From: Chelativorans sp. YIM 93263
GTDB taxonomy: Bacteria; Pseudomonadota; Alphaproteobacteria; Rhizobiales; Rhizobiaceae
Reading direction: 5' to 3'
Assembly (NCBI RefSeq): GCF_028767125.1
Contig: NZ_JAKCWP010000004.1
Span: 214,001 to 278,000 of the forward strand
Length of the DNA stretch: 64,000 nt
Each line of letters opens with the position of its first letter. Within the stretch, counting starts at the first letter, position 1. A program made the position numbers and the translations under genes. This document shows positions 35,280 to 63,183 of this stretch, one piece after another. The notes below the pieces were generated by a model, which saw only the letters and a program-made list of their open reading frames with translations, searched no databases and was not told the DNA's origin.

Positions 35280-35927
35280 TCAGGTCTCTTCTGTCTCGGA
35301 TATGGCCAGCCGGGTTTGAAGGGCGGCCTGGATGTGCGCCTTGCCCGCGCGCGCCGCCGCTTCAGTGTCTCGGGCCTTGATCGCGTCGATGATCTCGCGA
35401 TGCTCCTTCTCCGCCGTAGAGGTGCGACCGGGCTGCACGAAGGTGGTACGCGGCAGGAGCGCGATGGTCTCCTGAAGCTCCTCAACGGCCGCCTGCAGGT
35501 AACGGTTGCGCGCGGCATCATAAAGCCGAGCGTGAAAGTCGCGATTGCGCGCGGCGGCCTTGTGGGGATCGTCCGCGGCGCCGAGCTCACCGTTGATGCG
35601 TTCCAGATTGGCGATCTCGGCTTCCGTGGCATGCTGGGCGGCGAAGCGCGCCACGAGCGCCTCCATCTCCTGGCGCATGGCGTAAAGCTCGAAAATCTGT
35701 GACATCGACAGGACGGGCACCGCCAGGCCGCGGCCGGAGGCGGTCTCGAGCAGGCCCTTTTCCTGCAAGCGGCCGAGCGCCTCGCGCACCGGCGTACGGC
35801 TCACGCCGATTCGCTGTGCGACCTCCTCCTCGCGGAGCCTGTCTCCCGGCTTATAGACGCCGTCGCGAATGGCGGCGAGAATGGCACGGTAGGCATTCTG
35901 GCCCCGTGTGGATGAAGCGGAACGCAT
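35280..35927 (-). CDS. GntR-family regulator, FCD subfamily
   Basis: 215 residues. HTH at about 8-72: AYRAILAAIRDGVYKPGDRL, REEEVAQRIGVSRTPVREAL, GRLQEKGLL; FCD domain from about 80 with the metal-binding residues in RDFHARLYDAARN (Asp/His) and EHREIIDAIKARD (His). FCD regulators of this type bind TNGT-N2-ACNA palindromes and respond to organic acids. It is divergent from the AbrB-type permease and is the best candidate to act at the TTTGTATACAAA sites at 38.5, 46.5 and 50.1 kb. Confidence 0.9.
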   Translation of the reverse strand: MRSASSTRGQNAYRAILAAIRDGVYKPGDRLREEEVAQRIGVSRTPVREALGRLQEKGLLETASGRGLAVPVLSMSQIFELYAMRQEMEALVARFAAQHATEAEIANLERINGELGAADDPHKAAARNRDFHARLYDAARNRYLQAAVEELQETIALLPRTTFVQPGRTSTAEKEHREIIDAIKARDTEAAARAGKAHIQAALQTRLAISETEET

Positions 35928-36009
35928 TTATATTTTCAGTCCTCCCCCGGGTTGCACCGTCGTTACGGGTTCGCGATTGAAGAAGGGGCGCTTCACCGGA
36001 CGGCAGTAT

Positions 36010-36030
36010 GCAGATGTGCACAATATCTGC
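36010..36030. promoter_or_regulatory. Inverted repeat between gntR and the AbrB-type permease
   Basis: GCAGAT-GTGCACAAT-ATCTGC: perfect 6-bp arms around a 9-bp spacer, 64 bp upstream of the permease start in the divergent promoter region. Not the FCD consensus, so possibly bound by a different protein; significance uncertain. Confidence 0.35.
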
Positions 36031-36093: not shown

Positions 36094-37155
36094 ATGCAGA
36101 ACCTGCTGTTTCTTTCGCGGACGATCATCATCGGAGCTCTCGGTGGGCTGATCGGATATTTGCTCGGCCTGCCGCTCGGGTGGCTGCTCGGCGCGATGCT
36201 CGCGACCGTTCCGCTCGCCGTCGCAGGCTTCGAGATGCGCTCTTCGTGGCGCCTGCGCTCCGTTATGGTGGCGGTGATCGGGGTCATGGTCGGTGGTGCC
36301 TTCACGCCGGACATTGTCGCCCAGGCCTCTCGTTGGGTCTACTCGTTGATCGGTATCGCGATTTACGGGGTCGTGATCACCTTCGTGGGTATCGGCTTTT
36401 GCCGTTACGTCGCCCGGCAGGGGCGGCTGACGGCCGCCTTTGCCGCCACGCCCGGAGGTCTGAGCGAGATGTTGGTAATCGGCCCGTCTCTGGGTGCGGA
36501 TGTGCGGTTCTTGAGTCTTGTTCACGGGATGCGGGTCATGATCATTCTGATGACGGTGCCCGCGGTGGTGACGCTCGTCGGGCTCGGTCCGGGTGAGGCT
36601 ATCGAGGTCGACCGCAGCCTGGATCTGAGCCTTGCGATGCCACTTCAAGACGCGGTCATTCTGCTGGGATGCGTGATCTTTGGGATAATCGGCGGGCGTC
36701 TGCTGCGCCTGCCGGCCGCCGACCTCTCCGGCCCGCTTCTCCTGAGCGCGGTCGCGCATCTGGCCGAGTGGACAACCTTTCACCCGCCACAGCTCATCGT
36801 CATCGCCGCGCAGGTCGTGATCGGTGTTTCGATCGCCAAGTTCTTCGCCGATATCACCTGGCGGCAATTGTTCGGCGGGCTGGTTCTGGGGGGCGGACTG
36901 ACGGTCACGACGCTGACGCTGGCTGCCCTGTTCGCCTATGGCTTCGAGCGGTTTCTGGGTATTCCCTTTTCCATGGCCTATCTCGCCCTCGTTCCGGGCG
37001 GCCTGCCGGAGATGAGTCTGGTATCCGTGTCTCTGGGCATCGACCCGGCCTTCGTCAGCGTGCATCATCTTTTCCGGATCGTTCTGGTGCTGACGCTCGC
37101 GCCCATTCTTATTCCACTCTGGGCGCGCGAGGAGATCACGCCGGTCGAGGAATGA
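36094..37155 (+). CDS. AbrB-family membrane protein (duplicated permease-like domain)
   Basis: 353 residues with about 10 membrane segments arranged as an internal duplication: GALGGLIGYLLGLPLGWLLG AMLATV in the first half and FFADITWRQLFGGLVLGGGL plus FSMAYLALVPGGLPEMSLVS in the second, parallel to ATPGGLSEMLVIG in the first. The paired PGGL-x-EM motifs are typical of the AbrB (Gneg_AbrB_dup) family, once called putative ammonia monooxygenase and now thought to be transporters. Encoded beside organic-acid catabolic genes, it may be a second importer or an exporter of this regulon. Confidence 0.85.
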   Translation: MQNLLFLSRTIIIGALGGLIGYLLGLPLGWLLGAMLATVPLAVAGFEMRSSWRLRSVMVAVIGVMVGGAFTPDIVAQASRWVYSLIGIAIYGVVITFVGIGFCRYVARQGRLTAAFAATPGGLSEMLVIGPSLGADVRFLSLVHGMRVMIILMTVPAVVTLVGLGPGEAIEVDRSLDLSLAMPLQDAVILLGCVIFGIIGGRLLRLPAADLSGPLLLSAVAHLAEWTTFHPPQLIVIAAQVVIGVSIAKFFADITWRQLFGGLVLGGGLTVTTLTLAALFAYGFERFLGIPFSMAYLALVPGGLPEMSLVSVSLGIDPAFVSVHHLFRIVLVLTLAPILIPLWAREEITPVEE

Positions 37156-37247
37156 ACGCCGCTTCGTCGATGGGTTGCCCGTCGGCGAACCCCCTCCTCT
37201 GGAATGAGCGATGGCCGGTCCCCGCGCCTGGGCTTACATCAGTCCCG

Positions 37248-37439
37248 ATGCTTTATCTCGACCAAAAACCAAAGCTTTCGGGACCGAATACAACGTCCAT
37301 TCTGGCAAGATTGCGCGCGTCTGGCTCCGCCGTGAGCGACTGGATCGACCGCGTACGCTTGTACCAGACCTTCGCGCTATATGCGCAGACGCATCCGCTT
37401 CCGCCAAAAGCGCTGCGCCGACTGGGCTTGACGGGCTGA
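37248..37439 (+). CDS. Possible small basic protein (63 residues)
   Basis: Reads MLYLDQKPKLSGPNTTSILA then RLRASGSAVSDWIDRVRLYQ and TFALYAQTHPLPPKALRRLG. The C-terminal half, a helix ending in LPPKALRRLGLTG, resembles the end of DUF1127-type small proteins (arginine-rich, ending in R-D/R-I/L-G-L), but the match is loose. No clear ribosome binding site precedes ATG 37248. It fills part of a 366-bp gap between the permease and lysR; the rest of that gap holds no recognisable feature. Confidence 0.35.
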   Translation: MLYLDQKPKLSGPNTTSILARLRASGSAVSDWIDRVRLYQTFALYAQTHPLPPKALRRLGLTG

Positions 37440-37521
37440 GCCGGGCGGTATCTGACCGGCTCGCACACAGAGCGCCTTTCCGCGTTATAGTGGCATCGAA
37501 AGACAAGCGAGTCGCTTTACG

Positions 37522-38433
37522 ATGTCACAATTCGATCCCGTTACGGGACGGCTGGTTCTGGCGCTGGCGCGCGATGGCTCAATCGCCAAGGCCGCCGAGC
37601 GCGAACACATAGCGCCCTCCGCCATCAGTCGGCGTATCGCCGATCTGGAGGCGAATGCGGGCGTGGTTCTGTTCGACCGCTCGGCAACCGGCGTATCGCT
37701 GACCGCGGCCGGCGCAGCCTATGCGGAGGGTTGCCGGCGCATTTTCCGTGAGATTGCCGATCTCGAAACCAGCATGGCGGAGTTCGCTACGGGCCGCAGT
37801 GGTCAATTGCGCATTGCCGCATCGAGCTCCGCCTTGTCCGGGCGTCTCCCGGAGCTCCTGGCGGATTATGCCAAGCAACATCCCAAGGTACAGCTTGATA
37901 TTCGCGAGGCCGTCGCGCGCGCGGCGCTGGCCACCCTTGAAGACGCGCAGGTCGATCTTGCCATTCTCGCGGACAATTACGACTTCGCCCGCTTCGACAT
38001 CCTGCCTTTCGAGGATGATCACGTCTGGATCGTCGCCTCGCCTGAACACCCCATCGCAGGGCGCATCGCGGAGCGGGAACCACTGACGTTCGATGATGTG
38101 CTTCATTATGAGATCGTCGGAGTTCATCACACCGGCGCGCTCGACCGGCTTTTGCACGATGCGGCGCGGAAAGCCGGCCGCACGCTTGGCGAGCGGGTCA
38201 ACGTCGAAAGCTTTCCATCGCTTGTGCGCATGGTGGAGGCGGGGTTCGGAATCGGCTTTCTCCGCAACTCCTCCATACACCTGCTGGCGGGAACGGATCT
38301 TCTCTATACACAGCTTCAGGAGGATTGGGCGAAGCGGCAGCTGGTGGTCGCCACGCGCAAGACTGCGCCGCAAGCAGCCTCGGTGAAGGCTTTCATCAAG
38401 CTTGCCTCGGAGACCTACCGCCCGATCCCGTGA
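37522..38433 (+). CDS. LysR-family regulator
   Basis: 303 residues. HTH at about 5-62 (RLVLALARDGSIAKAAEREH IAPSAISRRIADLEANAGVV), effector domain from 90: GQLRIAASSSALSGRLPELL, DIREAVARAALATLEDAQVD LAILADNYD, MVEAGFGIGFLRNSS. Encoded upstream of and in the same direction as the Ldh-dehydrogenase-RraA genes, which start 110 bp later, so a local regulator is likely, in addition to the GntR-type site in the same gap. Confidence 0.9.
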   Translation: MSQFDPVTGRLVLALARDGSIAKAAEREHIAPSAISRRIADLEANAGVVLFDRSATGVSLTAAGAAYAEGCRRIFREIADLETSMAEFATGRSGQLRIAASSSALSGRLPELLADYAKQHPKVQLDIREAVARAALATLEDAQVDLAILADNYDFARFDILPFEDDHVWIVASPEHPIAGRIAEREPLTFDDVLHYEIVGVHHTGALDRLLHDAARKAGRTLGERVNVESFPSLVRMVEAGFGIGFLRNSSIHLLAGTDLLYTQLQEDWAKRQLVVATRKTAPQAASVKAFIKLASETYRPIP

Positions 38434-38470
38434 GGAGGTGAATGCTGCTATCCCATACGTGATCTCGTTC

Positions 38471-38498
38471 AGGAGGCATCGCTTGCAAATCGCCTCCT
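38471..38498 (+). other. Hairpin after lysR
   Basis: AGGAGGC (38471-38477) pairs with GCCTCCT (38492-38498) over a 14-nt loop. It has no T-run, and lies between lysR and the Ldh operon promoter; may weaken read-through. Confidence 0.4.
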
Positions 38499-38513
38499 TC
38501 TGTGATGAATACT

Positions 38514-38525
38514 TTTGCATACAAA
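38514..38525. promoter_or_regulatory. FCD-GntR operator candidate A (TTTGCATACAAA)
   Basis: TTTGCATACAAA differs by one base from the perfect palindrome TTTGTATACAAA found at 50112. It lies 19 bp upstream of the Ldh-family start codon, a position suited to repression. One of three strong matches in front of organic-acid operons in this region. Confidence 0.6.
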
Positions 38526-38543
38526 TTTGGGAGAAGCACGTCG

Positions 38544-39599
38544 ATGACCGAGGTCCTGACCGTCGACCATCGCCGGCTTGAGGAACTCGCTGCATCCATG
38601 CTTGCCATGCAAGATGTGCCGGAGGCGGATGCCGAGCGCATTGCCGCGTGTCTGGTGCTCGCCGATTTGCGCGGCTTGCCCTCCCACGGGATTGCTCGGC
38701 TGCCGGTCTATGCCGAGCGTCTGCGTAGGGGGCTGGTGAAGCCCCGCCCCAATCTGAATCTGGATGAGCCGACGCCGGTCTGTGCACGGCTCGACGGGGA
38801 TGATGGCTTCGGCTTCGTCATCGCAACAAGGGCGATGGATGAGGCCATGGAACGGGCGCAGACCTATGGGATCGGCATGATTTCGGCCTTCCGCTCGACC
38901 CATTTCGGGATGGCCGCGTGCTATCTGCTGCAGGCCGTGGAGAAGGGTTTTGCAGCTTTCATCTTTACCAATGCTTCGCCCGCCATGCCGGTGTGGGGCG
39001 GGCGCGAGCCCTTTCTGGGCACGAGCCCCTTTGCCTTCGCGGCGCCGGGAACGGACAAGGTACCGTCGATCGTCCTCGACATGGCGACCTCGGTGGTCGC
39101 GCGAGGAAAGATACGGCGGGCAGCGGCGAAAGGCGAGCCGATCCCGGAAGGCTGGGCGCTCGACAAGGAGGGGAATCCGACGACCGACGCCCGGGCCGCT
39201 TATGAAGGCATCGTGCTGCCGCTTGCGGGGCCCAAGGGCTCCGGCCTTTCACTGATGATGGAGGTGATGGGCGGCGTGATGAGCGGTGCGGCTTTTGCAG
39301 GACGCGTCGGCAACCAGTACAAGGATTTCGACGCGCCGCAGAATGTCGGTCACACGTTTGTCGCCATCCGGCCGGATGTTTTTGTGGGACAGGATTATGC
39401 CGCGCGCATGGAAGAACTCGTCCGGCGGGCAAAATCCTCGACGCCCATTGACGCCGCGCAGCCCGTGCTCATGCCTGGCGAGCCGGAGGCGCTGCGCGAG
39501 GCGGAGAACCGCCGGAAAGGAGTGGAGATGCCGGCAGATGTGGCCGAGGCGCTCCGGCAGGAAGCATCCCGCCTCGGCATCCGGATCGACGATTTTTGA
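38544..39599 (+). CDS. Ldh-family (malate/L-lactate/ureidoglycolate dehydrogenase) oxidoreductase
   Basis: 351 residues from ATG 38544 (GGGAGAA just upstream; an earlier in-frame ATG at 38502 lies before the operator and lacks a ribosome binding site). Family patterns: LRGLPSHGIARLPVYAERL (substrate-binding His/Arg), SAFRSTHFGMAACYLLQAV (catalytic His), ASPAMPVWGGREPFLGTSPF AFAAPG, and VLDMATSVVARGKI. These are NAD(P)-dependent 2-hydroxyacid dehydrogenases with a fold unrelated to classical LDH. First gene of a three-gene operon with two other organic-acid enzymes. Confidence 0.9.
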   Translation: MTEVLTVDHRRLEELAASMLAMQDVPEADAERIAACLVLADLRGLPSHGIARLPVYAERLRRGLVKPRPNLNLDEPTPVCARLDGDDGFGFVIATRAMDEAMERAQTYGIGMISAFRSTHFGMAACYLLQAVEKGFAAFIFTNASPAMPVWGGREPFLGTSPFAFAAPGTDKVPSIVLDMATSVVARGKIRRAAAKGEPIPEGWALDKEGNPTTDARAAYEGIVLPLAGPKGSGLSLMMEVMGGVMSGAAFAGRVGNQYKDFDAPQNVGHTFVAIRPDVFVGQDYAARMEELVRRAKSSTPIDAAQPVLMPGEPEALREAENRRKGVEMPADVAEALRQEASRLGIRIDDF

Positions 39600-39608
39600 C
39601 GCAGGGAG

Positions 39609-40589
39609 GTGCGATTGCTGCGCGTTGCGATACTAGACGATTATCAGAATGTTGCCCGGTCGCTGGCGAACTGGTCTCAATTGGGGCCGGACTACGAAGT
39701 GACCGTCTTCACGGAGAATCTTTCCACGGAAGACGCAGCAGCCGAGGCGCTTGCGGAATTCGACGTGCTCTGTCTGATGCGCGAGCGCATGCCGCTTTCC
39801 GCCAGTCTGATCGCGCGCCTGCCCAAGCTGAAGCTCGTCAATGTCACCGGCGCGCGGGTGCGCGTGATCGATTTCGATGCCGCGACGGCGCGCGGCATTA
39901 CAGTCTGCCACACCTTCGCCGGCGAGTCGCGCCATGCCACGCCGGAACTGGCCTGGGGGCTGATTATCGCCTGTGCACGCCATATCCCGGACGAGCACAG
40001 GCATGTACGGGAAGGCCAGTGGCAGCAGACCATCGGCACCACGCTGGGCGGGAAGACGCTTGGGCTCGTCGGCCTGGGAAAGCTCGGCAGCCGGATGGCG
40101 GCCATTGGCCAGGCGTTCGAGATGAATGTGATCGCCTGGAGCCAGAACCTCACCGACGAGCGCGCGGCGGAGGCGGGCGTGCGCCGCGTCGATAAGGAGA
40201 CGCTCTTTTCGAGCGCGGACGTCGTTTCGCTGCATCTGGTTCTCTCCGAGCGCTCGCGCCACACGGTGAGCGCACGTGAGCTAGGCTTGATGAAGCCCGG
40301 CGCCATTCTGGTGAACACTTCGCGTGGGCCGCTCATCGACGAAGAGGCGCTTGTGAAAGCGCTTGAGGAGCGGCGTATCCGTGCGGGGCTCGACGTCTTC
40401 GACACCGAGCCGCTTTCGGCTGACCACCCGCTGCGCTCGGCGCCGAACACGGTGCTCTCGCCGCATCTGGGCTATGTCACTGAAGGCGCGTACGAGCGCT
40501 TTTACAAGGATACTGTCGAAAACATTCTGGCCTGGCAGGCGGGGGAACCCGTGCGCGTGTTGGCTGCGCCGAAATCACAGGAGGGATAG
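39609..40589 (+). CDS. D-2-hydroxyacid dehydrogenase
   Basis: 326 residues if GTG 39609 is the start; TTG 39615 fits better with the GGGAGG ribosome binding site and would remove two residues. NAD-binding motif GLVGLGKLGSRMAAIG (about 155-170), and the catalytic triad of the family in NTSRGPLIDEE (Arg), DVFDTEPL (Glu) and LSPHLGYVTEGAYERF (His). It starts 9 bp after the Ldh gene. The pair of dehydrogenases with opposite stereochemical preference could interconvert hydroxy-acid enantiomers or act on successive intermediates. Confidence 0.9.
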   Translation: MRLLRVAILDDYQNVARSLANWSQLGPDYEVTVFTENLSTEDAAAEALAEFDVLCLMRERMPLSASLIARLPKLKLVNVTGARVRVIDFDAATARGITVCHTFAGESRHATPELAWGLIIACARHIPDEHRHVREGQWQQTIGTTLGGKTLGLVGLGKLGSRMAAIGQAFEMNVIAWSQNLTDERAAEAGVRRVDKETLFSSADVVSLHLVLSERSRHTVSARELGLMKPGAILVNTSRGPLIDEEALVKALEERRIRAGLDVFDTEPLSADHPLRSAPNTVLSPHLGYVTEGAYERFYKDTVENILAWQAGEPVRVLAAPKSQEG

Positions 40590-40590
40590 A

Positions 40591-41079
40591 ATGGCCGTAC
40601 TCAAGACCGCTGATCTGATCGACGATCACGACGAGAAACTGCGCTTTTGCAATCACCCGCTAGTCCTGTTCGGTGGGTCAGGCGGCTTCCATGGTCCGGT
40701 CGTGACGGTAAAGTGTTTCGAGGACAATGCGCTCTTGCGCAGCGTTCTGGAGGAACCCGGCGAGGGACGGGCGCTGGTAGTCGATGGCGGCGGTTCCACG
40801 CGCTGCGCGGTGGTGGGCGACAAAATCGCCAAGCTCGCGCAGGATAATGGCTGGGCTGGCGTGGTCATCAACGGCGCGATCCGCGACAGCGAAGAGATCG
40901 ACGAGATGGATTTCGCTATTTTCGCGCTTGCGACTTCGCCGAAAAAGAGCGCCAAGCAGAAGACCGGCGCGCGCGATGTTCCGGTCACTTTCGGGGACCT
41001 CACCTTCGAGCCCGGCCACTACCTTTATGCCGACGCGGACGGCATTCTGGTCGCCGATGGGCCGGTGCACGGGGGATAG
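40591..41079 (+). CDS. RraA-family protein (possible HMG/CHA-type oxo-acid aldolase)
   Basis: 162 residues. RraA fold with VVTVKCFEDNALLRSVLEEP, GRALVVDGGGSTRCAVVGDK and GWAGVVINGAIRDSEEI; the loop Gly-x20-Arg-Asp that binds metal and the pyruvoyl group in class II pyruvate aldolases is present (VVDGGG... GAIRDS). In E. coli the same fold inhibits RNase E, while in catabolic loci it cleaves 4-hydroxy-4-methyl-2-oxoglutarate or 4-carboxy-4-hydroxy-2-oxoadipate. The context favours an aldolase here. ATG is 1 bp after the dehydrogenase stop, with GGAGGGAT upstream. Confidence 0.85.
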   Translation: MAVLKTADLIDDHDEKLRFCNHPLVLFGGSGGFHGPVVTVKCFEDNALLRSVLEEPGEGRALVVDGGGSTRCAVVGDKIAKLAQDNGWAGVVINGAIRDSEEIDEMDFAIFALATSPKKSAKQKTGARDVPVTFGDLTFEPGHYLYADADGILVADGPVHGG

Positions 41080-41165
41080 GTTGTAGCGGGCGTTTGCGGA
41101 AAAGCCCTTTGTCGTCGCCACCCCGAACGCTCCCTCCGGTCGAACGGTTGAGGAGAGTGCGACGA

Positions 41166-42227
41166 TTACCCCGCCAGCGCTTCCACGACCTTTTGCGCAA
41201 ATGCGCGGGTGCCAAGCCGGCCGCCCAGGTCGGCGGTGCGCGTTTGCGCGTTTGAAAGCGCCTTGTCCACTGCAGCCTCGATCTCGGATGCGGCGGCGGT
41301 GAACTTATCCTTTCCGGTGCGCTCGCCGTACCAGCTAAGAAGCATCGCAGCGGAAAGGATCATCGAAGACGGGTTTGCCCTGTCCTGCCCGGCGATGTCC
41401 GGCGCTGAACCATGTTGGGCCTGCGCGGCGGCATGATCGTCTCCCGCGTTAAGAGAGCCGGCGAGGCCGAGGCTTCCTGAAAGCTCTGAGGCAAGATCGG
41501 ATAGAGTATCGCCATAGAAATTCGTCGTGCAGATGACGTCGTAGCGGGACGCATCGCGCACGAGCAGTGCGGCCATGGCGTCGATCAGAACATCCTCAAT
41601 CTCTACGTCCGGGAACTCTTTGGCCACCTCCCGCACCATCTTCAGAAAGAGGCCGTCGGTCATTTGAAAGGCATTCGCCTTGTGCACGGCAGTCACCTTC
41701 CTGCGCCGCTTGCGCGCCAGCTCGAAGGAGCGGCGGGCGATCCGCTCACAGGCCGCCGCCGTTATCTTGCGCATGGAAAGTGCGACACCCTCGACCGGCA
41801 TGAATTCGCCGGGCCCCTCCGCCATGTTCCGGTCCGGATACATGCCCTCGGTGTTCTCGCGCATGATGACAAGATCCATGTCCGTGCCGCGATGCGGCAG
41901 GTCGGGCCGTGTTCGGGCAGGGCGGATATTGGCATAAAGGTCAAGTCTGGTGCGGAACGCGGCGGAAAAATTGATGCCGCCTTCCTCGGGCGGTGGATAT
42001 TCGAGATTGGACATGGGACCGAGGAGGACGCCGTCCATCTGACGAGCGAGCGGCAGGATGTCATCCGGAAGGCTCGTGCCATGCTTCTTTAAGCTCGCAA
42101 GGCCCACCTCCCGATGGGTGTACTCGAGGCCGAGGGCGAAGCGGTGGTCGGCCGCTTTCAGAACGGCGAGACTTGCCTCCATGATTTCCGGCCCGATCCC
42201 GTCTCCGGGCAAAACAAGAACTTTCAT
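41166..42227 (-). CDS. Isocitrate/isopropylmalate dehydrogenase-family enzyme (tartrate/D-malate DH-like)
   Basis: 353 residues. VLPGDGIGPEIMEASLAVLK at the N-terminus, GGINFSAAFRTRLDLYANIR PARTRPDL, MDLVIMRENTEGMYPDR (substrate loop), KVTAVHKANAFQMTDG with catalytic Lys, and metal-ligand Asp residues in YDVICTTNFYGDTLSDLASE. These enzymes oxidatively decarboxylate beta-alkyl 2-hydroxy acids such as isopropylmalate, isocitrate or tartrate. The adenine-binding region (SAPDIAGQDRANPSSMILSA) follows the family. Its ATG overlaps the TAA of the prpF-like gene (TAATG). Last gene of the tct operon. Confidence 0.9.
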   Translation of the reverse strand: MKVLVLPGDGIGPEIMEASLAVLKAADHRFALGLEYTHREVGLASLKKHGTSLPDDILPLARQMDGVLLGPMSNLEYPPPEEGGINFSAAFRTRLDLYANIRPARTRPDLPHRGTDMDLVIMRENTEGMYPDRNMAEGPGEFMPVEGVALSMRKITAAACERIARRSFELARKRRRKVTAVHKANAFQMTDGLFLKMVREVAKEFPDVEIEDVLIDAMAALLVRDASRYDVICTTNFYGDTLSDLASELSGSLGLAGSLNAGDDHAAAQAQHGSAPDIAGQDRANPSSMILSAAMLLSWYGERTGKDKFTAAASEIEAAVDKALSNAQTRTADLGGRLGTRAFAQKVVEALAG

Positions 42228-43321
42228 TATTTCACCTCGAACAGCGAGGAGGGGACATACACTTCGCCGGCCATGAGCTTGCGCGCAGTGCGGATGACGC
42301 CGCCGCTGTGGATATGCATCGTCTTTCCCGAACCCGTAGTTTTCAGGGTCACCTCGAGTTTGCCTACCGGATGCTCGACGAGCAGAAGCCGGTCATCGCC
42401 CGGCGGGCGAATGGCCAGTTCGTCGGCGACCGATCCTTCCAGCATGGCGCAACTCGCCACGCCGATGCCGCCGGTCACGGCAAGCGCGGTATGGGCCTTG
42501 TGCGGCACGAAATAGCGTGCGGCGATATGGCCTTGTTCCCGCGGGGCGGCAAGGATGGCCACCTTCGGCACGACCTTGCCAGTGACGTCCCCCAGACCCA
42601 TCCGCTCGCCGGCGATTTTGCGCATTCTTTCGATCTGGGCAAAGAACTCCCTGTCGGCATCGAGCTCAGCCGCGCTTTCATAACCGGTCTTTCCGATATC
42701 GCTAGCGCGCAGGATCATCATGGGTACTGCCACGTCGATCAGCGTCACCGGAACATTCTCGATGTGTTCGACAGTCTCGCCCGTGGGCAGCAGCTTGTCC
42801 GTTTTCGAGCCAACGATGTCCATAAAGTTGAGCCGGATGGGCGCCGCCGTGCCGGGGACGCCGTCGATGGCCGCGTCTCCCTGGTAGATCACCTCATCTT
42901 CCGTGGTCTGGACCACCGCCTCGATGCGGCTTTGCGTGTTGATGTTGTAGATGACGACAGATGTGGCGCCATCCTTGCGCGCCACCATGCCGGTCTCCAG
43001 CGCGAAGGGGCCTACGCCTGACAGAATGTTGCCGCAGGATGGCGCCGTGTCGACCACGGCCTTGTCGACCGAGATCTGCGCGAAAAGGAAGTCGACATCC
43101 ACGCCCTCGCGCTTCGACGGCGCAACCATCGCGACTTTAGAGGTCAGCGTGTCGGCGCCGCCAAGGCCGTCGATCTGGCGGGCGTCGGGCGAGCCCATGG
43201 CCGCGAGCAGGATTCGGTCCCGCAGGGCCGGATCTTCCGGCAGATCCGTCATGCGGAAATAGGGCCCCTTGGACGTCCCGCCGCGCATCAGGATGCACGG
43301 GATGGCAGTCTGACTGTGCAT
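42227..43321 (-). CDS. PrpF-family tautomerase/isomerase (4-oxalomesaconate tautomerase-like)
   Basis: 364 residues from ATG 43321 (AGGAGA upstream). PrpF pattern: IPCILMRGGTSKGPYFRMTD LPEDPALRDRILLAAMGSPD, QIDGLGGADTLTSKVAMVAP, TAPSCGNILSGVGPFALETG (conserved Cys in PSCGN) and HIHSGGVIRTARKLMAGEVY. Members move a double bond in aconitate-like tricarboxylates: PrpF isomerises 2-methylaconitate, GalD tautomerises 4-oxalomesaconate. Between the TctA-type transporter and the IDH-family enzyme, so it presumably acts on the imported C6-C7 acid. Confidence 0.9.
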   Translation of the reverse strand: MHSQTAIPCILMRGGTSKGPYFRMTDLPEDPALRDRILLAAMGSPDARQIDGLGGADTLTSKVAMVAPSKREGVDVDFLFAQISVDKAVVDTAPSCGNILSGVGPFALETGMVARKDGATSVVIYNINTQSRIEAVVQTTEDEVIYQGDAAIDGVPGTAAPIRLNFMDIVGSKTDKLLPTGETVEHIENVPVTLIDVAVPMMILRASDIGKTGYESAAELDADREFFAQIERMRKIAGERMGLGDVTGKVVPKVAILAAPREQGHIAARYFVPHKAHTALAVTGGIGVASCAMLEGSVADELAIRPPGDDRLLLVEHPVGKLEVTLKTTGSGKTMHIHSGGVIRTARKLMAGEVYVPSSLFEVK

Positions 43322-43329
43322 TTCGTCTC

Positions 43330-45315
43330 CTATCGGAAAGGCCAGGGCAGGTTGAAGAACTCCTGCAGGAGGCCGGCTGGCATGACCAGGTTCAGGGCGT
43401 TTGCCAGCGTCATCATGAAGACCGCCGCGATGGCGGTAAGAATGAGTGTCCGTATCCAGCTTGCCTGCGCCACGAACCGCAGAAACAAGACGAAGAAGAC
43501 GAGAAGGCCGGCAAAGTAGCCGACGAGCGCGACGAGGCCGATAAAGCCGACGAGCCACGCGATAACGGTCCAGGCTCCGCCCCGGATGTCCTTTTCCCGC
43601 GCTGTGGCCTCAGTGTCGAAGTTCGCGGTCGAATCCAGCTTGCCCAGGGCGAGCGGTACCATAGCTACAAGAGTGGTCAGAATGCCGATGATGCCCACCG
43701 AGGTCGGGAACACGCCGCCAAGCATGGTGAGGCCAAGGCTCTCTGTAAGGGTGAACGCGAACACGGCGATCATCAGCCCGCCGAAGAGAAGCTGCGGCCA
43801 GATATGGGAGGCCTGTGCGAGATCGGAGGCGCCCTCGGTCGCGACACCGCCCGAACTGCCGTCCGCTTTCTTCCGCGCGCCCAGCCAGACTGAGATGAGC
43901 GTCAGCGCGAGGATGGCGAGCACGATCGGCCGGTTGAGAAAGGCCCAGCCGGAGAACTGAACGGCCTGGTAGAGGTAGCGCTCGGCCTGTGTCGCCAGCA
44001 CGAAGCCTATGAGAAACGCCGGGCGCGGCCAGCCGAAACGCTTCATGTAAATGCCGATGAGGCCAACGACCAGCAGCGCAATGAGATCGTAGAGGGATCG
44101 TGTCGCCTGGAACGCGGCAAAGGAGATCACCATGATCATGAACGGCGCGACGAGCGCGTAGCGGATGACCGTGAGCCGCGCAATTCCGGGGGCGGCCACG
44201 ATACAAAGAACCGTGCCGAGGACGTTGGCCAGGGCAAGCGACCAGATGATCGTATAGGTCAGATCGAGATTGCGGCCGGCCATCGCGGGGCCGGGTTGAA
44301 CGCCGAGCAGAATAAGCCCGGCGAGAAAGACAGCCATCGAACCCGAGCCGGGTATGCCGAAGAGCAGCGTGGGAACAAGACCGCCGCCTTCCTTGGCGTT
44401 GTTCGCGGATTCAGGCGCGATGACGCCACGAATGTCGCCCTTGCCGAATTGCGAGCGATCCTTCGATGTCTGCACGACGTGGCCGTATGCGATCCAGTCG
44501 ACGACCGAGCCGCCAAGGCCGGGAATTGCCCCGATGGCGGCACCGAGGGTCGAGCAGCGTACGGCCAGCCACTTGTAGGTCCAGGTGTCCTTAAGGCCGT
44601 CGATCCAGCCTTTGCCCAGCTTCGACGTCCCGGCAACGCTTGATTGCCCGCGCAGAAGATCAACGATTTCAGGGACGGCGAAAAGGCCAAGCGCGATGAT
44701 GACCAGCGGCAGACCGTCCATGAGATAGAGAGTACCGAACTCCATCCGGTATTCGCCGGTTGCCGGTGCGGCTCCGATCATGCCGAAGACGAGGCCAAGC
44801 GCTGCCGTTGCGAGACCCTTGGTCAGGTTGCCGCCCGACAGGACGCCGACGATCGAAAGCCCGAACACGGTGAGCGCAAACAGCTCCGGTGAGCTGAAGC
44901 TCAGGATCAGCGGACGGGCGATGATCACAAAGCCGGTCAGGATGACAGCGCCGAGCAGCCCGCCGAGAAGCGAGGCGGAAAAGGCGGCGGAAAGCGCTCG
45001 CGCCGCCTGTCCTTTCTTGGAAAGGGGGAAACCGTCGAGAACCGTCGCCTGGGAGGCCGTAGACCCGGGAATGCCCATGAGGACTGAGGCGAAAGTGTCT
45101 GACGTGGGAATAACCGCGACCAGCCCGATCAGCATGGCCAGTGCCGAGGTGGTGTCCATGCCGTAGATGAAGGGGAGCAGCAGTGAAAGCCCCACTATCC
45201 CGCCCAGCCCCGGCAGAATGCCGACGGCCAGCCCAAGCACCACGCCAAGGGCCATAAACCCCATATGCCCTAGCGTTAATAGATTCATAAAGGCTTCGAA
45301 CAGGGCGTCGAGCAT
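43330..45315 (-). CDS. Tripartite tricarboxylate transporter: TctA fused to a TctB-like domain
   Basis: 661 residues. Residues 1-490 are TctA: GHMGFMALGVVLGLAVGILP GLGGIVGLSLL, then the conserved IPTSDTFASVLMGIPGSTAS QATVLDG, and the repeat AIGAIPGLGGSVVDWIAYGH and LLFGIPGSGSMAVFLAGLIL, giving two inverted hairpin motifs. After a linker rich in Gly/Ala (about 490-512) a domain with four membrane segments (LLFGGLMIAVFAFTLTESLG onward, LVGFIGLVALVGYFAGLLVF FVLFLRFVA) has the TctB pattern. No separate tctB lies nearby, so the small subunit is fused. Works with the binding protein encoded just upstream. Confidence 0.92.
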   Translation of the reverse strand: MLDALFEAFMNLLTLGHMGFMALGVVLGLAVGILPGLGGIVGLSLLLPFIYGMDTTSALAMLIGLVAVIPTSDTFASVLMGIPGSTASQATVLDGFPLSKKGQAARALSAAFSASLLGGLLGAVILTGFVIIARPLILSFSSPELFALTVFGLSIVGVLSGGNLTKGLATAALGLVFGMIGAAPATGEYRMEFGTLYLMDGLPLVIIALGLFAVPEIVDLLRGQSSVAGTSKLGKGWIDGLKDTWTYKWLAVRCSTLGAAIGAIPGLGGSVVDWIAYGHVVQTSKDRSQFGKGDIRGVIAPESANNAKEGGGLVPTLLFGIPGSGSMAVFLAGLILLGVQPGPAMAGRNLDLTYTIIWSLALANVLGTVLCIVAAPGIARLTVIRYALVAPFMIMVISFAAFQATRSLYDLIALLVVGLIGIYMKRFGWPRPAFLIGFVLATQAERYLYQAVQFSGWAFLNRPIVLAILALTLISVWLGARKKADGSSGGVATEGASDLAQASHIWPQLLFGGLMIAVFAFTLTESLGLTMLGGVFPTSVGIIGILTTLVAMVPLALGKLDSTANFDTEATAREKDIRGGAWTVIAWLVGFIGLVALVGYFAGLLVFFVLFLRFVAQASWIRTLILTAIAAVFMMTLANALNLVMPAGLLQEFFNLPWPFR

Positions 45316-45354
45316 AACGGTTTACCTGTTTTCCGGGATAGCCGAGCGGTGGCA

Positions 45355-45388
45355 GCCGGACGCCGCGGCGCGTGCCAGGGCGTCCGGC
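45355..45388 (-). other. Intra-operon hairpin after tctC
   Basis: GCCGGACGCC and GGCGTCCGGC (45355-45364 and 45379-45388) form a perfect 10-bp stem with a 14-nt loop, 8 bp beyond the tctC stop. No T-run. Same position relative to a binding-protein gene as the hairpins at 8521, 17739 and 55734. Confidence 0.75.
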
Positions 45389-45395
45389 AGACGCA

Positions 45396-46499
45396 CTATT
45401 CGAGCGTCACGTTGTAGTTTTCGCTGAGGTAATTACGCACCCAGTCGCGCGCTTCGGGATCGATCGAGGTGGCCACCCGGTAGAGCCCCTCGACGTCGTC
45501 GCCCACAGCCTGCGTGTATTCGCCAAGCACGTCGCCCTTGGCTTCCTGCATCTCCGGGTCGGCAACTGCATCGACGAAGGCCTGGCGATAGGTGTCGATG
45601 ATCTCCTGCGGCGTGCCTTCCGGCAGCATCGCCGGCTTCTGCGCGGCAAACCCCGAGCCGAAGAACGACTTATAAGCGTCGAACGCAACGCCGGAGGGCT
45701 CTTCCCCGTGCATCATCTCGTAGGCTTCCACGAAATGCGGCAGGTCGGGGAAGGTAGGATCGCGCTGGATGTTGCCCTCACCATCGAGCGAGCCCCAGGA
45801 GAACAGCGGCACCGCATCACCGGCTTCAACGAGCGGCGTGACGTTCGTCAGATAGGCCGACGAGGTCTGGTAGTCGATCGTGGCTTCGCCGCGCTCGAAG
45901 GCGAGGCGGCCGTCGCCGCGGCCGGTCATCCCGAAGACATAGCGGACGTTGAGGCCCATTACATGGAAGGCGAGCATCGGCACGAGATCGAGGGACGTGG
46001 CGCCCTGGCTGGCATAGACTAGCTCTTCCTCGGAAAGCTGCCCCAGCTCGGAGGCATCGCTCACGCCGAAGGATGCTGGGATGTAGACCACGCCGCCGGT
46101 CGGCGTGACGAGCACCGGGTTGAGATTTGCATAGTTGTAGCGGACGCGGCTGTCGCCCAGAAGGAACGGGAACTGGGTCGAACCGGAGGTACCGAGCAGC
46201 GCGAGGCCGTCTGGCTGCGCTCTCGCCACGAACTCGTTGGTGCCGGTGATCGATCCGCCGCCGGGAACGTTACGCACCACGACATTCGGCTGGCCGGGCA
46301 GATGCTTTGACAGGAAGGGTGCATAAAAACGCGCCCACACATCCGATCCGCCTCCCTCGGAAAATGGAATCCACCATTCGATCGTCTCGCCGGAAAAGTC
46401 TACGCCGTTTTGCGCGCGCGCGCCGGCAAGCCCCATGGTCGAAAACGCGGCAGCCGAAGCACCGGCTGCGAGAAACTGACGGCGGTTGAACTTTAACAT
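45396..46499 (-). CDS. Tripartite tricarboxylate transporter binding protein (TctC/Bug family)
   Basis: 367 residues. The N-terminus MLKFNRRQFLAAGASAAAFS resembles a Tat signal (NRRQFLAAG) with cleavage near GARA-QN. The mature part has the TctC frame: ETIEWWIPFSEGGGSDVWAR (carboxylate loop), VVVRNVPGGGSITGTNEF, and a C-terminal helix region ending TSIDPEARDWVRNYLSENY. Slightly longer than typical Bug proteins (about 300-325 mature), the extra being in the middle. Preceded by GGGAGG and by a FCD-type operator 33 bp upstream of the start. Confidence 0.9.
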   Translation of the reverse strand: MLKFNRRQFLAAGASAAAFSTMGLAGARAQNGVDFSGETIEWWIPFSEGGGSDVWARFYAPFLSKHLPGQPNVVVRNVPGGGSITGTNEFVARAQPDGLALLGTSGSTQFPFLLGDSRVRYNYANLNPVLVTPTGGVVYIPASFGVSDASELGQLSEEELVYASQGATSLDLVPMLAFHVMGLNVRYVFGMTGRGDGRLAFERGEATIDYQTSSAYLTNVTPLVEAGDAVPLFSWGSLDGEGNIQRDPTFPDLPHFVEAYEMMHGEEPSGVAFDAYKSFFGSGFAAQKPAMLPEGTPQEIIDTYRQAFVDAVADPEMQEAKGDVLGEYTQAVGDDVEGLYRVATSIDPEARDWVRNYLSENYNVTLE

Positions 46500-46531
46500 A
46501 GCTGTGATCCTCCCTGGTCTCTAGTCTCTTG

Positions 46532-46543
46532 AATGTATACAAA
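46532..46543. promoter_or_regulatory. FCD-GntR operator candidate B (AATGTATACAAA)
   Basis: AATGTATACAAA carries the core TGTATACA of the perfect palindrome at 50112 and fits TNGT-N2-ACNA on one side. It lies 33-44 bp upstream of the tctC start codon, overlapping the expected promoter. Confidence 0.6.
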
Positions 46544-46627
46544 CGTGCACACTGAGCGCAGGTACAAGCCGGTGGCCGCCACCCTTGTCTGGCAGACGAC
46601 CACGCGGTCAACTCTATCTTTGCCTGC

Positions 46628-46640
46628 CATATTTAATATG
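46628..46640. promoter_or_regulatory. Palindrome upstream of the second LysR gene
   Basis: CATATT-T-AATATG is a perfect 13-bp inverted repeat 33 bp upstream of the lysR start at 46673. It may be the LysR autoregulatory site; it lies on the lysR side of the tctC-lysR intergenic region, opposite the FCD-type site. Confidence 0.45.
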
Positions 46641-46672
46641 TAAAATGATGAATCGGAGGATATTGATGCAAA

Positions 46673-47566
46673 ATGGACATCAATTGCGATATCATTGATT
46701 TGCGAGCCTTCATCGCGGTCATGGAATTGGGACATTTCCGAAGGGCGGCGGATAGCCTCGCGCTCTCACAGCCTGCGTTGTCCCGGCGTATTCAGAAGCT
46801 CGAGGAGACGATAGGCGCGAAGCTTTTTGCGCGCACTACCCGCCACGTGGAGCCCACCGCTGTCGGGCGGGAGTTGCTCCCCCTGGTGCGGCGATTGATC
46901 GATGAGTTTGATCAATCGCTGTTTTCGTTCCGAGATATCGGGCAGAGACGTGCCGGGCTGATCACCATGGCCTGTCTGCCGACTGCGGCCTTCTACTTTC
47001 TTCCCGCCGTGATCAAGCGCTTCAAGCTTGAATACCCGAACATCCGCTTCCGGATCATGGATCTGAGCGCCAATGACGGACTAAGCGCTGTTTCGCGTGG
47101 CGAGGTAGAGTTCGGCATTAATCTCATCGGTGCTTCGAGTGTCAATCTGGACTTCACACCGTTGCGGGAGGACCCTTTCGTGCTCGCCGCTCATAGAGAT
47201 CATCCGCTGGCCAGGCTGGAAAAGGTCCGCTGGAACGATCTGGAAAACCACTCGCTGATCACTGTCGGGCGCACGAGCGGCAACCGCACGCTGCTCGATA
47301 CGGCTCTCGCAAGCGCCGGAATGCACATGCATTGGACCTACGAGACGACGCATCTTTCGACCTCCCTGGGACTAGTGGAGGCGGGCGTCGGCGTTTCCGT
47401 TCTGCCGCGCATGGCAACGCCGCTCGAAGATCATCCGATTATTGTCGTGCGGCCGATTACGGCTCCGCAGGTGTCGCGGACGATCGGGATTGTTCGCCGG
47501 CGAGGCAGCACCCTTTCGCCGAGTGCGCAGCGCTTCGTCGATATGCTGATCGGCGAGTGGCAGTAG
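46673..47566 (+). CDS. LysR-family regulator between the tct and tcu operons
   Basis: 297 residues. HTH at about 8-66 (LRAFIAVMELGHFRRAADSL ALSQPALSRRIQKLEETIGA); effector domain from 92: GLITMACLPTAAFYFLPAVI, IRFRIMDLSANDGLSAVSRG EVEFGINLIG, LVEAGVGVSVLPRMA. Divergent from the tct-prpF-IDH operon and convergent with tcuAB (gap 11 bp). Position is that of TcuR, the LysR activator of tricarballylate genes in Salmonella. The GGAGGA motif precedes ATG 46673. Confidence 0.9.
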   Translation: MDINCDIIDLRAFIAVMELGHFRRAADSLALSQPALSRRIQKLEETIGAKLFARTTRHVEPTAVGRELLPLVRRLIDEFDQSLFSFRDIGQRRAGLITMACLPTAAFYFLPAVIKRFKLEYPNIRFRIMDLSANDGLSAVSRGEVEFGINLIGASSVNLDFTPLREDPFVLAAHRDHPLARLEKVRWNDLENHSLITVGRTSGNRTLLDTALASAGMHMHWTYETTHLSTSLGLVEAGVGVSVLPRMATPLEDHPIIVVRPITAPQVSRTIGIVRRRGSTLSPSAQRFVDMLIGEWQ

Positions 47567-47577
47567 CGCTCGGACGC

Positions 47578-48669
47578 CTAAATCCCGAAACGCCGCTCCA
47601 TGGCGTAGTGTACGAGTGCACCGAACCGGTAGAGCCCGTGCACGAACTTACTGTAGGGCAGCGTGAGGAAAAGCGCGAAGACGAAGCCGAGATGCAGTGC
47701 CAGGAGAAGGCCCATGGCCGGCGTGACCCGCAGCAGCATCAGGAGAAGTCCGGACACGCCCGTCAGGAACAGCATTACGGTAAACGCCGTATCCATTCCC
47801 AACCGTGATGTATCGACCAGATCCGGGTCGCGTGCGAACTTTGCTTTCAAGAGGCCAATGGGACCGATGGCAAGGCCGATACCACCCGCTGTGCCCAGGA
47901 GCTTAGGCAACTGGTACCACGCGTAAGGTGCCGGCATATCCATGAAATAATGTAGGAGCGTTCCCGACGTCGTCGCCGCGAAGCACAGGAGAAAGCCGTA
48001 GAACGTCAGGTGGTGATAGATGCGGCGGTTGTCCGTCGGCCGTTCGTTTTCATTGTAGCAGCCCACCCCGCCGCCATCGAGATAGCGCAGCGACCCCGCA
48101 TCCTTCATCGCCTGCCAGAGCGACGGAGCGTCATTGGCGCTCCGGCCTGACGCGCCAATATCTTTCCAGAAGGCGCGATAGCCCATGGTGAGCGCGAATA
48201 AGGCGAAAAGCGCGGCGGCACCGAAGATCGTCACCATGGTGGTATGCGGCATCACCCGGTAGAAATTGCCCGTTTCGGCGAAGAGCACACCCGGCTCGTG
48301 CCAGAGCGCGAAGCCGAGGATGAACGCGGCAATGCTGAGCGCAGTGACCAGTGCGATGGCCAGTCCGTTGCGGTCGAACATGGGCTGGAGAAAGGCCGGC
48401 CAGGCGTAACTGCGGTAAGAGTCGTTGCGCACCTGGGCCAGGACTTTCGGGACGTTGACGTCGAATTCATGCGGCGGAGCGAACTGGCAGTCCACATAGC
48501 ACGCGCCGCAGCCGTGGCAGAGATTGGCCAGATAGTTGAGATCGCCGGATGAAAAGGCCCGCCGCATCTCCATCGCGGGGAAGACGGCGCACAATCCCTC
48601 GCAATAACGGCAGGAATTGCAAATGGTCATCAGCCTTTCGGCTTCGGTAATATGGCTAGTGGCCTGCAT
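47578..48669 (-). CDS. tcuB: TcuB: iron-sulfur/heme membrane protein for tricarballylate dehydrogenase
   Basis: 363 residues. N-terminal ferredoxin-like part with two cysteine clusters (MTICNSCRYCEGLCAVFPAM and LANLCHGCGACYVDCQ) for 4Fe-4S centres, then about six membrane segments (VTALSIAAFILGFALW; VTIFGAAALFALFALTMGYR; LTFYGFLLCFAATTSGTLLH) with histidines suitable for heme b. TcuB reoxidises FADH2 in TcuA and passes electrons to the quinone pool. It starts 14 bp inside the tcuA 3' end, so the two are coupled. Close in length to Salmonella TcuB/CitB. Confidence 0.92.
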   Translation of the reverse strand: MQATSHITEAERLMTICNSCRYCEGLCAVFPAMEMRRAFSSGDLNYLANLCHGCGACYVDCQFAPPHEFDVNVPKVLAQVRNDSYRSYAWPAFLQPMFDRNGLAIALVTALSIAAFILGFALWHEPGVLFAETGNFYRVMPHTTMVTIFGAAALFALFALTMGYRAFWKDIGASGRSANDAPSLWQAMKDAGSLRYLDGGGVGCYNENERPTDNRRIYHHLTFYGFLLCFAATTSGTLLHYFMDMPAPYAWYQLPKLLGTAGGIGLAIGPIGLLKAKFARDPDLVDTSRLGMDTAFTVMLFLTGVSGLLLMLLRVTPAMGLLLALHLGFVFALFLTLPYSKFVHGLYRFGALVHYAMERRFGI

Positions 48670-50068
48670 GTCTGGCTGCCTCTTCTCCCGCGATACGTCC
48701 GAACACGCTGCCGATCGTCATGCCCACGCCGGCGGCATAGCCCTGGCCGAGCACGTTTCCGGCCATGATCTCGCCGGCGGCGAAGAGATTTTCCGCACCA
48801 CCCCCCTTGGCCATCTGCATGCGAGAATGGCGGTCGATCCGCGTCCCAAGATAGGTGAAGGTGATCCCCGGGCGAACGGGGTATGCGTAGAATGGCGGCG
48901 CCTCGATCCGCCGCGCCCAGTGCGACTTGGGCGGGGTCAGCCCTTCCGTGTGGCAATCGTCAAAGACCGTGTGATCGAATGTGCCCTCGTGCACCGAGGC
49001 GTTGAAGCCGTTGACCGTGTCGCTGAGCGCCTCCGGTGAAAGCTCCAGCTTCTGAGCCAGTTCGCCGATGCTCTCGGCCTGTATGGGTGGGTAAAGGGAG
49101 GGCATGAACATCTCAATCGACCGCGCATCGAAAATGATGTAGGCGATCTGGTCGGGCTGTGCGGCCACGAGCCGCCCCCATATCGCATAGCGCTTCGGCC
49201 AGAAATCCTCACCCTCGTCATAGAAGCGCTCGGCGTTCTTGTTGACGACAATACCGAAGACTACGCAGTCAAGGCGCGTGATGATGCCGCCGTCGAATTT
49301 GGGCGCGCGCGCGTCGATGGCAACGGCGTGGCACTGCGTCGGATCACCCACCGGCTGGACGCCCTTGTCCAGCAGAAGCCTGAGAATGTCGCCACGATTG
49401 TAGGGCGTGCCGCGGATGAGGAAATTGTCGGCTGGTTCGCCCCAGTATTCCTTCAGCCAGTCGATATTCGCCTCGAAGCCGCCTGCCGCGACCACGTAGG
49501 ATTTTGCCTCGACGACCACCTCCTGATCGAAAATACGCGCCGTCGCCGACCGGCAGTGCCCTCCGACGAGATCGAAATCGGTCACCGGCGCCTCGTAGTG
49601 GATTTCCACGCCAAGTTTCTCGGCGGTCAGATAAAGCGCGTTGAGCATGGCGCGCCCGCCGCCGAGAAAAAAGGAGTTCGTGCGACCAAGACTGAGCGTG
49701 CCGCCAAGCGAGGGCTGGAAGCGCACGCCCTGGCGCGTGATCCAGCCGAGCATCGCTTTTGACTCCGCGATCATGTGTTTGGCGAGCGCCTCGTCGGTGT
49801 GGCCCTGGGTGACACGGGAAAGGTCTTCCCAGAACTCGTCTTCCGTATAGGGCCCCGTCAGGAAATCCGTCGCTTCGTCGTGGGCGCAGCGCATGTTGCG
49901 GGTGTGGCGCGTGTTGCCACCCCGATAGAACTTCGGCGCCTTCTCCAGCACCATGACGCTCGCGCCTTCCCACCGCGCTGCAATCGCTGCGCACAGCGCC
50001 GCATTGCCGCCGCCGACGACAAGCACATCCACTTCCTTGCGCTCACGCGCCTGATCACCTTCGCGCAT
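48656..50068 (-). CDS. tcuA: TcuA: FAD-dependent tricarballylate dehydrogenase
   Basis: 470 residues. FAD-binding Rossmann motif VDVLVVGGGNAALCAAIAAR at 13-32, then KFYRGGNTRHTRNMRCAHDE, SYVVAAGGFEANIDWLKEYW, KFDGGIITRLDCVVFGIVVN, and the C-terminal AGEIMAGNVLGQGYAAGVGM TIGS. These match TcuA of the fumarate-reductase-like family, which oxidises tricarballylate to cis-aconitate. A fourth carboxylate or methylated substrate cannot be excluded. A perfect FCD-type operator lies 44 bp upstream of ATG 50068, separating control of tcuAB from that of the AbgB operon. Confidence 0.92.
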   Translation of the reverse strand: MREGDQARERKEVDVLVVGGGNAALCAAIAARWEGASVMVLEKAPKFYRGGNTRHTRNMRCAHDEATDFLTGPYTEDEFWEDLSRVTQGHTDEALAKHMIAESKAMLGWITRQGVRFQPSLGGTLSLGRTNSFFLGGGRAMLNALYLTAEKLGVEIHYEAPVTDFDLVGGHCRSATARIFDQEVVVEAKSYVVAAGGFEANIDWLKEYWGEPADNFLIRGTPYNRGDILRLLLDKGVQPVGDPTQCHAVAIDARAPKFDGGIITRLDCVVFGIVVNKNAERFYDEGEDFWPKRYAIWGRLVAAQPDQIAYIIFDARSIEMFMPSLYPPIQAESIGELAQKLELSPEALSDTVNGFNASVHEGTFDHTVFDDCHTEGLTPPKSHWARRIEAPPFYAYPVRPGITFTYLGTRIDRHSRMQMAKGGGAENLFAAGEIMAGNVLGQGYAAGVGMTIGSVFGRIAGEEAARHAGH

Positions 50069-50111
50069 TGTCTCACATGGTCTTTTGATTGTGACAGCGT
50101 TCTACATACAT

Positions 50112-50123
50112 TTGTATACAAAG
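50112..50123. promoter_or_regulatory. FCD-GntR operator candidate C (TTTGTATACAAA)
   Basis: TTTGTATACAAA is a perfect 12-bp palindrome meeting the FadR-family TNGT-N2-ACNA rule, centred about 50 bp upstream of the tcuA start codon. It is the reference copy for the related sites at 38514 and 46532. Confidence 0.7.
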
Positions 50124-50364
50124 TGATGCAATGCGCGAACGGGAGATTTTCTCTATGAGGGAGGCAATCGCGACCGAACGCAAACACCTGTGCTTCGCTC
50201 CGCCCAAGCATCAAGAGGTCGCGAGGAGCTTCGGCTGATCACCGACATTCGAGATCAGCGCAGACTTCCCCATGTTCGTCACATTGAGGCTTGCCGTTGG
50301 TATTCGAGCCGGAGCGGTCCCCAAGCGCAACAACGCTTGGGGACACCCGATGTTTTCTTGCCCG

Positions 50365-63154: not shown

Positions 63155-63183
63155 AAGTTCCATTCTTTCGCTCTAGGGGGGTC

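Follow-up and report, generated by a model that had tools for sequence, protein, structure and literature searches.

Known systems and the present locus

In Salmonella, tricarballylate is oxidized to cis-aconitate through tcuA and tcuB, genes of a tcuRABC system whose regulator, TcuR, is of the LysR type and whose transporter is TcuC (excerpts of PMC10468695 and PMC12994799). The current work concerns a related cluster in a 64,000-nucleotide stretch of Chelativorans sp. YIM 93263 (contig NZ_JAKCWP010000004.1, positions 214,001 to 278,000), referred to in full as the window. This cluster also contains tcuA and tcuB, but it carries an FCD-domain GntR regulator and a Tct-type transporter instead of TcuR and TcuC. 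A palindrome built around GTATAC lies before three organic-acid operons of the cluster. The FCD-GntR protein encoded at 35280-35927 is likely to bind all three copies, as comparison with other genomes suggests, and would probably keep the operons repressed as long as no tri- or dicarboxylate of the pathway occupies the FCD metal site.

Several described regulators resemble this protein in part. Atu1419 of Agrobacterium fabrum, an FCD regulator of the VanR group, binds the 10-bp palindrome ATGTATACAT (excerpts of PMC7797058). Its DNA-contact residues R31, E34, R45, T46 and R49 and its zinc ligands N137, H141, H192 and H214 have identical counterparts in the window protein, namely R30, E33, R44, T45 and R48, and N128, H132, H176 and H198. 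The alignment was made with PDB 6z74, which is taken to be Atu1419 because the residue numbers match those in the paper. Atu1419 differs, according to the same excerpts, in repressing hydroxycinnamic acid genes, in its proposed effector, methylenetetrahydrofolate, and in a tetramer that loops between palindromes 190 bp apart rather than using 10-bp units.

Proteins of the FadR subfamily bind small carboxylic acids, and a GT-N2-AC palindrome is one of the spacings known for them (Suvorova et al., PMC4494728, in part). In GntR-family sites, additional weaker boxes were reported there at a distance of 7-12 nt from the centre, whereas the extra units described below form rows at exactly 10 bp. The string "tricar" was not found in the main text of that article. 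NanR, also a GntR-type repressor, places three dimers on three repeats; however, these repeats are (GGTATA)3 and control sialic acid genes, in contrast to the GTATAC palindromes every 10 bp of the present group (excerpts of PMC8012715). CitO of Enterococcus faecalis is an FCD regulator of citrate genes that binds citrate with a divalent metal, but it is an activator and comes from a Firmicute (excerpts of PMC4746285).

A palindrome shared by three operons

The first-pass annotation of this stretch had placed a common palindromic operator before the operons Ldh_2-2HADH-RraA, tctC-tctAB-prpF-IDH and tcuAB (2HADH, D-2-hydroxyacid dehydrogenase; IDH, isocitrate/isopropylmalate-dehydrogenase family protein), and this is borne out. 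When up to two mismatches were allowed, TTTGTATACAAA occurred exactly three times in the window, at 38514 (one mismatch), 46532 (two) and 50111 (none). Shuffled windows contained 0.34 +/- 0.67 such matches, and three were reached in 2 of 100 shuffles. The first two positions stand as annotated; the third had been given as 50112, and the exact match starts at 50111.

Rarity was also evident in the whole genome of 4.25 Mb, where the sequence matched once exactly, once with one mismatch and 21 times with two; the tctC site belongs to these 21. The sole exact copy is the one at 50111-50122 and the sole one-mismatch copy is TTTGCATACAAA at 38514; both fall in a 12-kb stretch. The shorter core TGTATACA has six genomic occurrences, two of them in the organic-acid cluster.

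A matrix learned from other genomes, with the window excluded, gave the same sites the top three ranks in the window, at 22.0 bits (tcuA), 20.7 bits (tctC) and 17.7 bits (Ldh_2). A scan of the whole genome with this independent matrix placed them first, second and joint fourth among the five sites of at least 17.6 bits, the other two being C22:167838 (18.1 bits) and C21:16255 (17.7 bits). In random sequence of 4.25 Mb, scores of 22.0, 20.7 and 17.7 bits were reached 0, 0 and 3 times in one replicate, and 0, 0 and 0.7 times as the mean of three. The three reported sites are real and do not arise by chance. They end 42 bp before the tcuA start (50068), 32 bp before the tctC start (46499) and 17 bp before the Ldh_2 ATG at 38543; the longest Ldh_2 open reading frame (ORF) starts with GTG at 38502, a start that would place the 38514 site inside it. 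A sigma-70 promoter scan of 35900-50250 found one promoter-like match against 3.0 expected, and it was not at any operator site.

The genes and predicted sites of the cluster are as follows.

35280..35927, minus strand: FCD-domain GntR regulator of 215 aa, predicted operator binder (Pfam FCD and GntR; tcuA-linked clade)
35993..36024, no strand assigned: weak candidate site for autoregulation or the AbrB promoter, GTATGC-N4-GTGCAC (5.4 bits in the 32-bp model)
36094..37155, plus strand: PF05145 (AbrB-family) gene divergent from gntR (family scan; a homologue stands beside GntR in several relatives)
38514..38525, plus strand: predicted operator TTTGCATACAAA before Ldh_2, preceded at 10 bp by a GAATAC unit (mismatch scan and matrix)
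38543..39599, plus strand: Ldh_2, malate/L-lactate dehydrogenase family (Pfam, 407 bits)
39609..40589, plus strand: D-2-hydroxyacid dehydrogenase (family scan)
40363..41079, plus strand: RraA-like aldolase ORF (family scan); the real start is probably later, because the domain covers residues 82-230
41166..42227, minus strand: isocitrate/isopropylmalate-dehydrogenase family protein (family scan)
42227..43558, minus strand: PrpF-family protein (4-oxalomesaconate tautomerase model, 492 bits, cut-off 440)
43330..45315, minus strand: TctA whose C-terminus matches TctB weakly, below the cut-off (family scan), probably a TctAB fusion
45396..46499, minus strand: TctC solute-binding protein (family scan)
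46532..46543, minus strand: predicted operator AATGTATACAAA before tctC (mismatch scan and matrix); a site is also present in the LysR-tctC spacer of genomes G001 and G039
46673..47566, plus strand: LysR regulator divergent from tctC, a rival regulator (family scan)
47578..48669, minus strand: TcuB (NCBIfam TIGR02484, 418 bits, cut-off 247)
48656..50068, minus strand: TcuA, FAD-dependent tricarballylate dehydrogenase family (NCBIfam NF006130, 713 bits, cut-off 369)
50101..50132, minus strand: predicted operator array before tcuA, with the core TTTGTATACAAA at 50111-50122 (30.9 bits in the 32-bp model)

A second LysR gene lies at 37522-38433, and LysR genes adjoin two of the three sites. The gntR and tcuA genes are 12.7 kb apart on opposite sides of the cluster; the direct adjacency of the two that is common in the group is absent here. 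Outside the cluster, the last 4 kb of the window (60001-64000) have a GC content of 0.560, the lowest of sixteen 4-kb pieces (0.583-0.639 in the others).

The FCD-GntR protein and its relatives

The protein at 35280-35927 belongs to the FCD (FadR-type) subfamily of the GntR superfamily, with PF07729 at 94.1 bits and PF00392 at 69.8 bits, both above their cut-offs. The window GntR and TcuA proteins were each searched in 201 related genomes, and TcuA was also searched in a named collection, where 586 matches were confirmed and the top 80 retained. A TcuA-family match was present within about 3.6 kb in 16 of the 30 loci retrieved by GntR similarity alone (its own included). Of 76 GntR/FCD sequences placed in a tree (FastTree, midpoint-rooted), 55 form a clade, with a support of 0.89, that includes the window protein. 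A TcuA homologue was found within 1.5 kb in 38 of these 55 and not within that distance in 17, a share that is biased upward since some clade loci were retrieved through TcuA.

The genome encodes 21 FCD proteins, and a different one might bind the palindromes. Atu1419, an unrelated FCD protein, recognizes nearly the same core, as excerpts of PMC7797058 indicate, and the motif alone cannot select one of the 21; one further FCD gene is even located in the window, near 5102-5470. Against this, the motif was learned beside relatives of the 35280 protein and tracks that regulator group, and the 12 of 20 paralogues that entered the tree all fall outside the tcu clade, the remaining eight being unplaced because they failed its length or E-value filter. 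No 12-mer reached 9 bits (best 8.3) in the roughly 3.4 kb surrounding any of the 21 FCD genes; the 35280 gene is no exception, its sites being 2.6-14 kb distant. Binding by another FCD protein of the genome is therefore considered quite unlikely. The second FCD-domain GntR gene of the window, near 5102-5470, is without a strong motif match around it.

The palindrome in tcuA spacers of other genomes

In other genomes, 19 distinct divergent GntR-tcuA spacers were collected after one identical copy had been dropped, and 17 were used after two near-duplicates had been excluded. An unsupervised search for palindromic motifs in these 17 spacers, the window excluded, returned aTTGTATACAAt, in which the G and C of GT/AC are present at 0.95. 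At width 16 the log-likelihood ratio was 131.5 for the real spacers (40 random starts) versus 23.9-30.3 in eight shuffled sets (15 random starts each).

Presence of the palindrome follows presence of the regulator. A total of 79 tcuA loci were compared, one of 80 being skipped for too little upstream sequence; a GntR gene was counted as divergent within 500 bp, and the palindrome was sought within 300 bp of tcuA. The consensus of the first-pass annotation, with at most two mismatches, was present upstream of tcuA in 9 of 14 loci with a divergent GntR versus 1 of 51 that lack GntR (Fisher p 5.8e-7). The remaining 14 loci, with other arrangements or weaker GntR matches, were set apart, and 4 of them had a match. 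Where gntR stands directly before tcuA on the same strand (six loci), a site lies upstream of gntR in five (L155, L156, L160, L083 and L164, the last by the 32-bp model only) and is absent in L161. The palindrome recurs beside relatives of the nearby GntR protein in other bacteria, and it is therefore regarded as the predicted operator of that protein.

These comparisons bear on two further proposals of the first-pass annotation. That the FCD-GntR protein is the natural candidate regulator is supported by its clade placement, by its tcuA-adjacent relatives and by the motif in their spacers. A single predicted regulon spanning the three operons likewise gains support from comparative genomics, because GntR relatives adjoin tcuA, the palindrome sits in those spacers, and its presence follows the divergent GntR.

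One of the two LysR regulators (37522-38433 and 46673-47566) could instead own the palindrome, in the way that a LysR-type protein accompanies tcuABC in Salmonella. The LysR genes next to two of the three sites agree with this, as does the LysR-tctC pair kept together with a site in G001 and G039. However, three loci of other genomes without a GntR match (L114, L115 and L157) encode LysR homologues of at least 38% identity but lack the palindrome within 300 bp, the best matches there containing 4-5 mismatches. The palindrome is also present in many GntR-tcuA spacers whose locus has no comparable LysR match. In G001, which is of the same genus, the tctC match of the LysR locus (L178/L253) is preceded at 45 bp by ATTGTATACAAA, but this genome also has a GntR-tcuA pair on another draft contig. 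The LysR-tctC spacers of the window and G001 moreover share another element nearer lysR, ACATATTAAA. Ownership by LysR is considered unlikely. The ACATATTAAA element is at 46632-46641 in the window (tctC sense strand) and at 10134 of L253 in G001, is not exactly present in G039, and may be a separate LysR-linked element.

Sites before tctC, Ldh_2 and gntR in relatives

Outside tcuA, conservation of the sites is narrow. In G039, the GntR shares 78% identity with that of the window, and the cluster genes recur in two collinear blocks whose placement differs. Sites precede tctC, prpF and a TcuA-like gene (33-35% identical), and one more stands between gntR and abrB. The last of these, GTATGC-N4-GTGTAC (12.3 bits), is in the same spacer as the weak candidate of the window at 35993..36024. 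Before the Ldh_2 match of G039 stands a weaker GCTGTATACATA (12.4 bits, 77 bp upstream) with a GCATGC unit 10 bp further upstream; it is below the threshold and was first seen by eye. A full site occurs about 60 bp before tctC in Photobacterium (L052), and the 32-bp model detected arrays before tctC in Franzmannia and Halomonas (L086 and L090).

Several points weigh against joint control of the three operons by the FCD-GntR protein, in addition to the upward bias of the clade count and the core shared with Atu1419. The sites before tctC and Ldh_2 are conserved in few genomes. Among 10 longer loci with TctC, the site before tctC was present in three (L052, L086 and L090) and weak in L097, and it was absent before tctC in L037, where TctC is 80% identical. 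When 20 of 30 retrieved tctC loci were scanned (own included), it was found before tctC in 3 and not in 17, one of which (L190) had a 32-bp match 1 kb away. In 11 of 30 retrieved Ldh_2 loci, the own locus alone passed the threshold, G039 falling below it. The tctC site scores at chance level in the 32-bp array model, and the gntR promoter has only its weak 5.4-bit site, which is also at chance level (52 per 4.25 Mb of random sequence). Even beside tcuA, 5 of the 14 loci with divergent GntR exceed two mismatches, and the L248 training spacer fits the 32-bp model badly (-6.6). Finally, the first-pass annotation overstated the rule TNGT-N2-ACNA, to which all sites had been said to conform: in a strict scan only the 50112 core fits, and the other two sites break the rule at one base each.

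Such observations might mean that the tcuAB site alone is functional and that the tctC and Ldh_2 matches are coincidental, the broad conservation at tcuA and the chance-level array score of the tctC site agreeing with this. On the other side, the 12-bp scores of these two sites are reached only 0 and 0.7-3 times per random genome, both sites are 17-32 bp from start codons in the same cluster, and in other genomes a site is again present before tctC (G001 and G039) and, in weaker form, before Ldh_2 (G039). Coincidence is accordingly judged unlikely, and control of all three operons by the FCD-GntR protein is preferred.

A metagenome-assembled proteobacterium (L092, 1611-11074) contains homologues of tcuA, tcuB, tctC, tctA, rraA, prpF, PF05145 and 2-hydroxyacid dehydrogenase in one row, which therefore supports a common pathway for these genes.

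Units repeated every 10 bp

At width 32 the motif model reads ttTGtATACatTTGTATACAAatGTATaCAaa, that is, three GTATAC units at 10-bp spacing. In 29 held-out sites, the mean match to GTATAC at -10 and at +10 bp was 3.41 of 6 each, compared with 0.7-2.2 at other offsets beyond 3 bp. The tcuA array of the window scores 30.9 bits in this model, a score with no match in 4.25 Mb of random sequence. Flanking GTATAC units are present on both sides at tcuA (3 and 4 of 6 bases) and upstream at Ldh_2 (5 of 6) and tctC (4 of 6). The operator is thus usually a row of GTATAC units with a period of 10 bp, partly degenerate in the window. The array may be seen as an extension of known behaviour, because extra boxes (PMC4494728) and a three-dimer operator in NanR (PMC8012715) have been reported in the excerpts cited above.

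Other candidate sites

The fourth-ranking site of the window, AATGTATGCAAA at 57505-57516 (16.4 bits), was considered as the mark of a fourth operon. About 2.7 such matches are expected per random genome and none of 11 other homologous loci had a 12-mer above 10.8 bits, so that a fourth operon is unsupported. The site precedes an SBP_bac_5 gene by about 54 bp, in a row of ABC-transporter and M20-peptidase genes.

Elsewhere in the genome, TGTGTATACAAT at about C22:167838 (L013 1501-1512, 18.1 bits) is flanked by an SDR gene and a gene for an NMT1-like binding protein, approximately 4 kb from another FCD gene. ATTGCATACAAA at C21:16255 (L011 1501-1512, 17.7 bits) lies about 60 bp upstream of a gene for a FadL/TodX-type outer-membrane protein. 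Both are near chance, with 0.7-3 matches expected per random genome at 17.7 bits. In two TcuA-like genes, a TAG codon noted in frame proved to be the terminal stop.

Proposed regulation and its meaning

The 35280-35927 protein would be the local member of a tcu-associated group of FCD regulators. Its dimer is predicted to recognize palindromes resembling (A/T)TTGTATACAA(A/T), located 17-42 bp ahead of the three start codons, and would probably repress by blocking the promoter regions, as this closeness to the codons suggests. Repression would probably be lifted when tricarballylate, aconitate or a citrate-like acid binds the FCD metal site, the choice of ligand following from the gene content. 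Along the 10-bp-phased units, several dimers might line up on the same side of the helix. Such a switch is of a conventional type, and the comparison of genomes supports it well as a prediction.

No description of an FCD regulator of tcu genes was found among the titles and abstracts listed from the open-access literature searched. In the same literature none of the papers listed for the string TTGTATACAA seemed to concern a bacterial operator, and tricarballylate together with GntR gave only unrelated passages. A broader proposal is more tentative and somewhat doubtful at present: that a widespread FCD group of Alpha-, Beta- and Gammaproteobacteria and Oceanobacillus, undescribed according to these searches, might control tricarballylate/aconitate catabolism through GTATAC palindromes tiled at exactly one helical turn with cooperative stacking of dimers. 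The number of intact units might then grade control, making it strong at tcuAB and weak at tctC.

The current work provides a predicted regulator and operator for tcuAB-type genes outside Salmonella. A Tct transporter, a tautomerase-family enzyme, dehydrogenases and an RraA-like aldolase are thereby linked to a single class of substrate, which narrows the search for their pathway. The 10-bp-phased operator, in turn, offers a prediction about cooperative binding by FCD regulators.

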